The position numbers were made by a program, and so were the translations under genes. Source: Bacillus sp. Cs-700 (GTDB lineage: Bacteria; Bacillota; Bacilli; Bacillales; Guptibacillaceae). From it: 64,000 bases of DNA. Location of the stretch: NCBI RefSeq assembly GCF_011082085.1, contig NZ_CP041063.1:3148001-3212000 (forward strand), given 5' to 3'. The notes beneath the pieces were generated by a model that was given only the letters and a program-made list of their open reading frames with translations, did no database searches and was not told the DNA's origin. This document shows, piece after piece, positions 5,788 through 44,575 of this stretch (its first letter is position 1; the number at the start of each line of letters is the position of its first letter).

Positions 5788-6120
5788 ATGGCAAAGAAAC
5801 CAGGACAAACTCAAGCTGGTACAAGTATTCAACACGTAAAACAGCAGAATCAACAAGCTTCTGCAGGACAAGCAGGTCAGCAACAATACGGTGCTGAATT
5901 TGCAAGTGAAACGGATGCTCAAGAAGTGAAAGCTCGCAATGCGAAGTCTGCTCAAAACAAGCAGCAAGCATCTGCAGGACAAGCAGGACAAGCAGGTCAG
6001 CAACAATACGGTGCTGAATTTGCAAGCGAAACGGATGCTCAGCAAGTGAAAGCTCGTAACGCAAAGTCTGCTCAAAATAAGCAGCAAGCATCTTCGAAAA
6101 ACAACCAGCAGCAACAATAA
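5788..6120 (+). CDS. sspE: Gamma-type small acid-soluble spore protein
   Basis: A 110-residue Gln/Ala-rich spore-core storage protein. Two tandem copies of a block ending G-A-E-F-A-S-E-T-D-A-Q-x-V-K-A-R-N are present; each E-F-A-S-E-T-D carries the cut site of the germination protease GPR. The repeats are nearly identical in DNA (about 5855-5960 and 5964-6082), with an extra GQA triplet of residues in the second. It is not a DNA-binding alpha/beta SASP but an amino-acid reserve used in outgrowth. RBS GGAGGTGAT precedes the ATG. Confidence 0.95.
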   Translation: MAKKPGQTQAGTSIQHVKQQNQQASAGQAGQQQYGAEFASETDAQEVKARNAKSAQNKQQASAGQAGQAGQQQYGAEFASETDAQQVKARNAKSAQNKQQASSKNNQQQQ

Positions 6121-33086: not shown

Positions 33087-33340
33087 AACGAAAAGTAAAG
33101 CAGGCTTGGTCACATTCGTAGACCATTGGAGCTCTTGAACGTAAGGCGCTTTTCGCCTGAAGTGAAAGAGTGAAATGGGCAAGAATGTAGCCTGCGGAAC
33201 TAGACATTGTTATTGGAATACGTTGTGCGTGCTATCTAGTTTTCAGGGAATAAATTTTTCTTGAAAAACTAGATGAAATATAGTATGATATATTTTGTCG
33301 CTGGCAAATCACAAAAAGTGAAATCCAGTCCAGTTATTAG
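33087..33340 (+). other. 23S-5S spacer with the 3' arm of the 23S processing stem
   Basis: 33210-33243 (TTATTGG...TGCTATCTAGTTTT) pairs with 30057-30090. A second boxA-like CTTGAAAAACTAGATGAAA lies before 5S. No other feature is seen. Confidence 0.75.
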
Positions 33341-43327: not shown

Positions 43328-43391
43328 TGAATTCCATCTCCATTTAAAAACATGCTATAATAGAAATGTTTTGAAGTGGAGGTGAATGAAG

Positions 43392-43865
43392 ATGTCTTTA
43401 AATATCGTCCTTTTTCAGCCAGAAATACCGGCGAATACGGGAAATATCGCACGAACATGTGCAGCTACTCATACAAGTTTACATTTAATTCGTCCATTAG
43501 GCTTTTCAACTGATGATAAAATGTTGAAACGTGCGGGATTGGATTACTGGCAATATGCTGACGTTCATTATTATGATTCTCTAGATGAGTTTTTTGAAAA
43601 AAATCAGGATGGGAAATATTACTATATAACGAAATATGGTACAAATACACATACTGATTTTGATTACTCTGATCAAGACGAGCATACGTATTTTGTTTTT
43701 GGAAGAGAAACAAACGGCTTACCAGATGAATTGATTGAGAATAATAAAGAACGTTGTCTTCGTCTACCGATGACTGATCACGTTCGCGCTCTTAACCTAT
43801 CTAATACAGCTGCAATTATGGTTTATGAAGCGTTAAGACAGCAAAATTACCCTGGAATGAAATAA
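43392..43865 (+). CDS. trmL: tRNA (cytidine(34)-2'-O)-methyltransferase TrmL
   Basis: A 157-residue minimal SPOUT methyltransferase (former cspR). Motif 1 is ANTGNIARTCAATHTSLHLI, motif 2 FVFGRETNGLPDEL and motif 3 LRLPMTDHVRALNLSNTAAI, which together form the trefoil knot that binds SAM. It methylates the wobble base of tRNA-Leu(CAA/TAA); both of these tRNA genes lie earlier in the window. ATG 43392 is nine bases after GGAGG; ATG 43386 is too close. Confidence 0.94.
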   Translation: MSLNIVLFQPEIPANTGNIARTCAATHTSLHLIRPLGFSTDDKMLKRAGLDYWQYADVHYYDSLDEFFEKNQDGKYYYITKYGTNTHTDFDYSDQDEHTYFVFGRETNGLPDELIENNKERCLRLPMTDHVRALNLSNTAAIMVYEALRQQNYPGMK

Positions 43866-43910
43866 AAAAGAACGACTTTTCAGCTAAGAGCTGTAAGTCG
43901 TTCTTTTTTT
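43866..43910 (+). terminator. Rho-independent terminator of trmL
   Basis: Stem around GAACGACTT and its complement with an inner CAGCT/AGCTG arm, flanked by A and T runs. Confidence 0.88.
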
Positions 43911-43930: not shown

Positions 43931-44467
43931 CTTAGATAAAGAGTTCCAATATCTTCGTTTCTAAACGCTCGTCTCCGCTTTTCGAGAGATCCAGCTGCAG
44001 TGGCCAGGTCCTCGATCGCTTCACCCTTCAATCCGAACACAAAGACCGTGTTCATATTGAAGAGCTCCAGCGCTTGTCGGACCTAATCGGCCACTTCCGC
44101 TTTTCTTGTCCAGCTGCAGCGCCCAGCCTCTCGATCGCTTCACCCCATAAAATGAACACAAAAAGCGTGTTCTTTTTATAGGGCTCCAGCGCTTGTCGAG
44201 GCTAAACGGGCGCTTCCGCTTTTCGAGAGATCCAGCTGTGACTCGCAGAAACTGCGATATTTCACTCTTTCACCAGAACACAAAGGGCGTGTTCTAGTTC
44301 AAGAGTTCCAATATCTTCGTTTCTAAACGCTCGTCTCCGCTTTTCGTTAGATCCAGCTGCAGTGGCCAGGTCCTCGATCGCTTCACCCTTCAATCCGAAC
44401 ACAAAGACCGTGTTCATATTGAAGGGCTCCAGCGCTTGTCGGACCTAACCGGCCACTTCCGCTTTTC
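43931..44467. repeat. Array of about 4.5 structured 120-bp repeats
   Basis: A half unit (43931-43983) is followed by full units at 43984-44105, 44106-44224, 44225-44345 and 44346-44467. Each runs from a TCCAGCTG-like start to CTTCCGCTTTTC or CTCCGCTTTTC. All full units share a central GAACAC...GTGTTC hairpin with outer stems that differ in sequence but stay paired (GTGGCC/GGCCAC in units 1 and 4, GCGCCC/GGGCGC in unit 2). Units 1 and 4 with their left flanks are a near-identical block of about 168 bp. No coding frame or transposase is seen. Confidence 0.9.
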
Positions 44468-44470
44468 GTT

Positions 44471-44575
44471 TTACCGACTACCTTTTTTGGTTTTGCTTGG
44501 TCGGTCGTTGTAGCCAGCTGTGAAGATTGCTGCTAGGAATGCCAGGATTACTACTAAAATACCCAGGAAACTCAT
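44471..44575 (-). CDS. Small single-span membrane protein (34 aa)
   Basis: Starts MSFLGILVVILAFLAAIF with one membrane helix, then a short basic tail ending in K-T-K-K-G-S-R. ATG at 44575 has GAGGAGG eight bases upstream. The gene abuts the repeat array. No name is assigned; its form resembles small Bacillus membrane peptides that regulate larger partners. Confidence 0.7.
   Translation of the reverse strand: MSFLGILVVILAFLAAIFTAGYNDRPSKTKKGSR

Follow-up and report, generated by a model that had tools for sequence, protein, structure and literature searches.

What is the repeated DNA that fills the gap beside trmL in Bacillus sp. Cs-700, which of its strands is kept in a folded form, and how do its units come and go? 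In the window, i.e., the whole stretch of 64,000 nucleotides that was analysed (contig NZ_CP041063.1, positions 3,148,001 to 3,212,000), the initial annotation described a tandem array of four units of about 120 bp and a half unit, in which the stem sequences change while their pairing is kept. Both TRF and a profile search recover this array. Over the window, TRF detects 4.0 copies of a repeat with period 119 at 43990-44467, and with the profile search the array runs head to tail on the minus strand from 43933 to 44467, with four full units of 117-118 nt and a 5' half-unit (Table 1). Read in sense, the partial unit is the 5' half of a unit, and it sits at the end of the array nearer to the terminator, which corrects the earlier description.

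The first unit in sense order starts 3 nt past the stop codon of a 34-aa open reading frame (ORF), for which no NCBIfam match was found. At its other end the array faces, with its stub, a terminator-like hairpin that has an A-tract on one side and a T-tract on the other and is common to the array and the convergent trmL. Elsewhere in the window (5863-6093), a 120-bp direct duplication with 93% matches, rich in GCAGGACAA, probably lies inside coding sequence.

Table 1 Coordinates of the trmL-side array, its neighbours and the rRNA-spacer copy in the window
Feature	Position in window	Strand	Evidence
Full unit, first in sense order, type A2	44350..44467	-	R1 130.6 bits; genome 3192350-3192467
Full unit, type B (unit 3 of the initial annotation)	44229..44345	-	R1 111.2 bits; genome 3192229-3192345
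Full unit, type A2 (unit 2 of the initial annotation)	44107..44224	-	R1 129.5 bits; genome 3192107-3192224
Full unit, type A2 (unit 1 of the initial annotation)	43988..44105	-	R1 128.3 bits; genome 3191988-3192105
5' half-unit (stub), profile positions 1-52, terminator-proximal end	43933..43983	-	nhmmer
Bidirectional intrinsic-terminator-like hairpin between trmL and the array	43864..43909	.	15-nt perfect inverted repeat I1
Small ORF, 34 aa, stop codon directly before the array	44471..44575	-	Open frame read from sequence
trmL, convergent neighbour	43386..43865	+	TIGR00185 225.5 bits (cut-off 190.6)
Single divergent element copy, 23S-5S rRNA spacer	33090..33206	+	R1 71.9 bits; genome 3181090-3181206

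Fold, covariation and sense strand

Each full unit folds into one long rod, in which five helices are split by conserved purine-rich internal loops. The order along the rod is P1 (AGC/GCT), an internal loop, P2, a 4-nt bulge, P3, a loop, P4, a UGGA/GA loop and a long apical helix that ends in a G.U closing pair over a short, conserved apical loop. The internal loop between P1 and P2 has G.A in 55/55 and A.G in 53/55 sequences, the loop between P3 and P4 has G.A in 52/55, and the G.A and A.G columns of the UGGA/GA loop are invariant. The tandem G.A pairs of one loop raised the possibility of a kink-turn, which is not claimed. The stem pairings listed in the initial annotation are present in the sequence and in the computed folds, and the folds are more stable than those of shuffled sequence: z-scores of the minimum free energy (MFE) are -2.5 to -6.8 on the plus strand and -5.2 to -7.3 on the minus strand, with 0-2 of 200 shuffles at least as good. 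Folded as DNA, the four units reach -21 to -33 kcal/mol in sense versus -16 to -28 kcal/mol for the other strand.

Covariation was scored in two alignments. A2 comprises 55 distinct units out of the 86 full units of the genome, aligned by sequence only; 92.2% of its cells pair, and 29 of the 39 pairs change on both sides. A4 comprises 150 of the 173 matches from the pattern-scan loci (98 of at least 119 stretches), mostly from named Bacillales; here 94.1% pair and 37/39 pairs change on both sides, in an alignment that was made to the model and leans towards structure. In A2 none of 500 shuffles reaches any of five covariation measures, in A4 none of 500 reaches the observed covariation, and sliding the partners abolishes the signal. 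The copies of a single genome of another family (G324) give 24/39 pairs on their own, again with 0/500 shuffles reaching the covariation. We also applied a tree-aware test, a simplified procedure resembling R-scape in which Fitch changes are re-dealt along the branches of a FastTree tree and scored by an APC-corrected G statistic. It finds 5 significant pairs in A2, all of them in the structure (5/39), and 29 in the multi-genus A4, with 26 in the structure (26/39) and 3/29 outside it. This is covariation beyond phylogeny, by which structured RNA families are recognised.

The two strands can be told apart by the mismatches that the helices tolerate. With one pair that is always G.U left out, G.U outnumbers A.C by 92:21 in A2 and by 312:52 in A4, and therefore the strand whose fold is kept is the sense strand, which in the window is the minus strand instead of the one used in the initial annotation. 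Thus, the covariation seen inside this genome and between genera, the tolerance of G.U on one strand and the conserved internal loops support selection on a single-stranded fold. The earlier proposal had named selection or templated copying of such a fold. The former is supported, whereas templated copying alone is insufficient, since the internal loops keep their mismatches instead of having them corrected.

Copies and distribution

The array beside trmL is one of many. A BLAST search with one unit gives 68 matches in the genome, and the covariance model R1, made from an alignment of 55 units and used at E <= 0.01, gives 100, in keeping with the dispersed copies foreseen in the initial annotation. 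These matches form about 33 arrays, of which one at 2.60 Mb was found by R1, and single copies in rRNA spacers. By a simple ORF call the arrays lie between ORFs (32 arrays), i.e., the genome holds many dispersed, short, intergenic copies, as is characteristic of MITEs.

The single copies occupy six 23S-5S rRNA spacers, including the one in the window, and follow the end of the 23S gene after 4-5 nt (4 nt after the 23S match for the window copy). Four of them score 106.9-110.4 bits with R1 and two score 71.9 bits. All are in sense with the rRNA, and copies likewise lie directly behind 23S in two other genera; this location suggests that the spacer copies are transcribed. At another locus (L042, genome 2406253-2406604), three units stand in sense between two co-directional genes, which, from the start of AtpD, presumably belong to the atp operon; the units are absent from two related genomes, G009 and G007. 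Downstream of three other arrays (L048, L050 and L060), a TTCCGCGA-like motif is repeated in the flank.

Matches to R1 were found in 64 of 81 genomes (this genome and 80 relatives), in 43 of 57 genera and in 14/14 genomes of the same genus. A second model, R2, built from A4, was run on 398 genomes sampled from the class and has matches in 67. Of these, 31 belong to the same order, with this genome counted, and 36 to three other families (31, 3 and 2). Presence may differ between genera of the same family, with R2 matches in 0/5 genomes of genus g44 and 3/3 of genus g58. The highest number in one genome is 128 (G324), and another genome, G023, has 104. A pattern scan of named genomes gave at least 119 stretches, and among those listed all but two contigs from metagenome-assembled genomes (MAGs) are Bacillales by name; the genera among the matches listed include Rossellomorea, Cytobacillus, Neobacillus, Metabacillus, Mesobacillus, Planococcus, Sporosarcina, Pseudalkalibacillus and others. 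The two MAG contigs, labelled Oscillospiraceae (L171) and Alphaproteobacteria (L172), have no match to R1 or R2 and were set aside.

No element match was found in a phage collection searched with two arrays, nor among IMG/VR viral contigs searched with one exact pattern. The plasmid matches are one 690-kb Cytobacillus replicon and one weak match of 42 nt. With no phage or viral match and this replicon as the sole strong plasmid match, carriage by phages or plasmids was rejected. The replicon, annotated as a plasmid of Cytobacillus spongiae (NZ_CP089998.1, L314), has dpaA and another sporulation gene beside the element, and because sporulation genes adjoin the match it may be a fragment of chromosomal DNA or a chromid.

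Orientation, context and turnover of arrays

The arrays are not oriented at random with respect to replication. In Bacillus sp. Cs-700, dnaA lies at 2.67 Mb, and GC skew switches sign within the intervals 2.65-2.69 and 0.56-1.26 Mb. With the rRNA copies left out and a weak match at 1562773 merged with its neighbour, the sense strand reads against fork movement in 26:7 of the 33 arrays (p = 0.0013), or 27:7 if that match is counted separately. The same bias appears in two genomes of other families, at 53:6 in G324 (p 2e-10) and 31:13 in G023 (p 0.0096), among the matches listed with defined skew. These counts started from the 73 of 128 and 46 of 104 matches listed, with neighbours in the same array merged by hand and with 14 G324 and 2 G023 sites left out for undefined skew. 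When the skew switch points were placed by hand, the ratios among the matches listed were 67:6 and 32:13, with one G023 site still out. The rRNA-spacer copies are an exception and are co-directional with the fork. Of the ORFs of at least 100 aa in the window, 47 use the leading strand and 11 the opposite one, so the orientation bias of the element runs counter to that of genes.

The arrays are also placed with respect to gene ends. Taking the stop codon of a same-strand ORF (100 aa or longer) as zero, 11/32 arrays start at -6 to +3 nt, compared with 3.6% of control intergenic positions in a window of -8..+10 (p about 9e-9). Within 120 nt, a terminator-like hairpin follows 16/32 arrays on the 3' side and precedes 0/32 on the 5' side, in a scan that misses the hairpin of the window array and scores the other half (16/32) without one. 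Antisense placement between two opposite-strand genes was counted for 15/32 arrays of this genome, by an ORF call that misses small ORFs such as the one in the window, and for 25 of the 40 loci examined in G324.

Arrays have a polarity of their own. Among the 31 arrays with a full unit, 25 are closed by the start motif of another unit and 1 is opened by a unit-end motif, so that an array typically reads (5' half - 3' half)n - 5' half. By eye, the stub ends at the apex, behind the array, at a locus of Rossellomorea aquimaris (L144), and at another (L085) it continues into a terminator-like hairpin. Chi (AGCGG) was considered for the unit starts and set aside, as many G324 copies read AGCGC or AGCGT. 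Many copies at the G324 loci L335-L373 are followed by one of two conserved tails of about 36 or 65 nt. An exact TTATCCACA, which resembles the consensus of a DnaA box, occurs in 5 of the 35 copies listed, with near-matches in others. Given these longer conserved tails, what moves in some lineages may extend beyond the rod.

Comparison of related genomes separates the history of sites from that of units. Of the 14 genomes in the genus, 12 carry an array at the trmL site; it has between one and four full units and, in 9/12, a terminal partial unit. In the other two (G010 and G003), the small ORF continues straight to a similar terminator-like hairpin, and these sites could be losses rather than pre-insertion sites. 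All 32 sites of the genome were located in G009 and G007. The strings of unit types differ at nearly every site among the three genomes, and two sites in G009 and five in G007 have no profile match; judged by eye, the empty alleles at sites 0, 2, 9 and 16 retain a fragment of a unit, and that at site 11 retains none. A same-site counterpart at 95% identity or more exists for 18 of 88 full units in G009, where trmL is 98% identical, and for 19/88 in G007. The nearest relative of 31/88 units is at another site of the same genome, as opposed to their own array or the same site in G009 or G007. Some units appear by eye to join the 5' half of one type to the 3' half of another, with pairing lost. 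Types B and C are too uniform for the polarity of array growth to be read from unit orthology. The sites thus persist, whereas between close species their units are gained and lost, duplicated and swapped.

Explanations and known systems

We give about an even chance to the explanation that the element is a chromosomal, non-autonomous Bacillales repeat of about 120 nt, MITE/REP-like, which is under selection through the fold of its sense strand and whose units recombination reshuffles. Single-stranded hairpins at replication forks would let host recombination copy units, delete them or swap them at the resident 5' stub, and orientations that put the stabler strand on the lagging-strand template would be lost or never made. 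From the known behaviour of hairpins, keeping the stabler sense DNA hairpin off the lagging-strand template would reduce deletion. Copies within transcription units (3' UTRs of head-on genes and 23S-5S spacers) lie in sense and would be read into RNA rods at transcript 3' ends, and these rods would probably be substrates of a structure-reading protein, e.g., an RNase III-type enzyme. The conserved loops, together with the rRNA and 3'-UTR positions, point to such a putative reader of the fold, possibly of RNase III type. Several observations stand against this explanation. Our searches found no transposase, target duplication or parent element for it; covariation across many genera is more than passive repeats need; within the genome, tree-aware support is limited to 5/39 pairs; and the rRNA-spacer copies, as well as 7, 6 and 13 sites in the three genomes, break the orientation rule. 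The 16/32 arrays scored without a terminator-like hairpin, and the chance that the two empty trmL sites are losses, also count against it.

That the element is a REP/BIME-type repeat moved through single-stranded DNA by a Y1 transposase (RAYT or IS200-like) would fit its hairpin, its replication-strand polarity and the two RAYT-like genes of the genome (L062 at 2370351 and L063 at 2187698, both below the NCBIfam cut-off). These genes, however, are flanked by other hairpins (GGGGTCAGG.. and GGTGACAGGCACC..), unit size and array form are unlike those of REPs, and matches to Y1_Tnp occur in 14/20 element-rich versus 11/19 element-poor genomes, sets that are phylogenetically uneven and of which the second, defined by zero R1 or R2 matches, may hide missed copies (G054 has 0 with R1 and 3 with R2). 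Because 6/20 element-rich genomes have no Y1 match and the RAYT-like genes carry other hairpins, REP/RAYT as an obligate origin was rejected, the link to a REP-type transposase suggested in the initial annotation was not upheld, and we consider this account decidedly improbable. Copying from RNA by a reverse transcriptase would likewise suit the RNA-like fold, the orientation bias and the position next to terminators, where group IIC introns also sit, but it is barely credible: RVT_1 matches, in 7/20 element-rich versus 10/19 element-poor genomes of the same uneven sets, do not track the element, a reverse transcriptase as an obligate origin was rejected, and none was found in this genome (G000), in G007 or in 13/20 element-rich genomes. 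Five element-rich genomes (G131, G027, G268, G207 and G412) have matches to neither Y1_Tnp nor RVT_1. Inspection of array junctions by eye gave no clear target duplication and possible short inverted ends in some G324 copies. A motif search of the loci collected, for a parent element with a gene in its apex, gave no convincing element split by a gene, but 149/388 unit starts have no recognisable partner end; 12 have one 136-5000 nt away, ten of them spanning 173-356 nt. The two longest candidates (L085 and L144) were discarded as 5' stubs followed by unrelated sequence.

Two further accounts ascribe a function to the copies themselves. The rod may be a functional 3'-end RNA, transcribed with the upstream gene or pre-rRNA and bound or cut by a protein that reads double-stranded RNA, which would set the 3' end or the stability of the transcript while arrays spread as useful or harmless passengers. 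Folding of the sense strand with its excess of G.U over A.C, the conserved G.A and apical loops, the sense copies directly behind 23S (in six spacers here and in two other genera), the array starts at stop codons (11/32) and the terminator-like hairpins found solely on the 3' side all favour it. On the other hand, 25/40 sites in G324 are antisense between two opposite-strand genes, orientation tracks replication rather than transcription, and units are swapped rapidly, which implies that the number and kind of units per site hardly matter; we regard this account, the chief alternative, as possible, though on balance unlikely. A role in DNA architecture, with the element as a polar site (a hairpin or the target of a protein) that signals the direction of the replichore or helps to organise the chromosome, would explain the strong replichore polarity (53:6 in G324, among the matches listed) and the many sites per genome. 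It is nevertheless improbable, given that the stem sequences vary under a kept fold with one strand protected, which a protein that binds double-stranded DNA would not need, that several genomes of the same order have no model match, and that the rRNA copies are oriented oppositely.

A bolder form of the repeat explanation, which we hold to be distinctly unlikely, is that the element represents an unnamed class of Bacillales repeats whose sense fold is read by a dedicated protein, whose units are added to a permanent 5' stub with replication and mostly opposed to the fork, and whose RNA rods lie at the 3' ends of head-on genes and 23S rRNA. If this were true, a structured, self-renewing element would be tied to replication direction instead of to a transposase. 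The element draws attention for its covariation-supported fold, found in 43/57 genera with up to 128 matches per genome and copies in rRNA spacers, and without a match in Rfam. The replichore polarity and the polar, fast-turning arrays allow the influence of hairpin strand and fork direction on the gain and loss of bacterial repeats to be tested in nature, and any protein that reads the rods would be a new RNA- or single-stranded-DNA-binding activity in well-used relatives of Bacillus.

Among known systems, Rfam families resemble the element as structured RNAs with covariation. No Rfam family matched it at threshold: the window gave rRNA and tRNA and the 12 related loci gave 5S rRNA, and the sub-threshold matches near the window array look like chance. 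The literature searched, in which most subscription papers were outside coverage, held no description of it either. REPs are palindromes of 20-40 bp, and the MITEs listed with them have terminal inverted repeats of 15-30 bp (available text of PMC3733652). Like REPs and BIMEs, the element consists of dispersed extragenic hairpins, and movement through single-stranded DNA would predict strand polarity; unlike them, it has no linked RAYT gene, and its unit size and array form differ. The NEMIS/Correia elements of Neisseria are gene-adjacent, MITE-like hairpins for which cutting of the RNA by RNase III has been proposed; the available text of PMC2229807 does not mention stubbed tandem arrays or rRNA-spacer copies, such as the element has.

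Bcr1 is an intergenic folded repeat of similar size from the Bacillaceae. It is 147 bp in the literature and 167 in the available text of PMC2267715, is counted among MITEs in that of PMC3733652, and is specific to the B. cereus group according to the title of its source paper. As described, it is set apart from the element by this restriction, the element being found in many genera. The Efa-1 repeat, with 163 bp and 65 copies, is a pair of adjacent stem-loops (available text of PMC2267715). Both Efa-1 and the element are intergenic repeats that fold. The EFAR of Enterococcus faecalis, which we take to be the same as Efa-1, insert themselves into stem-loops and are put together from several types of sequence. 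In contrast to these repeats as they are described, which belong to a different order, the element forms a single rod per unit with conserved internal loops, its units stand head to tail with a 5' stub, and its arrays follow replichore polarity.
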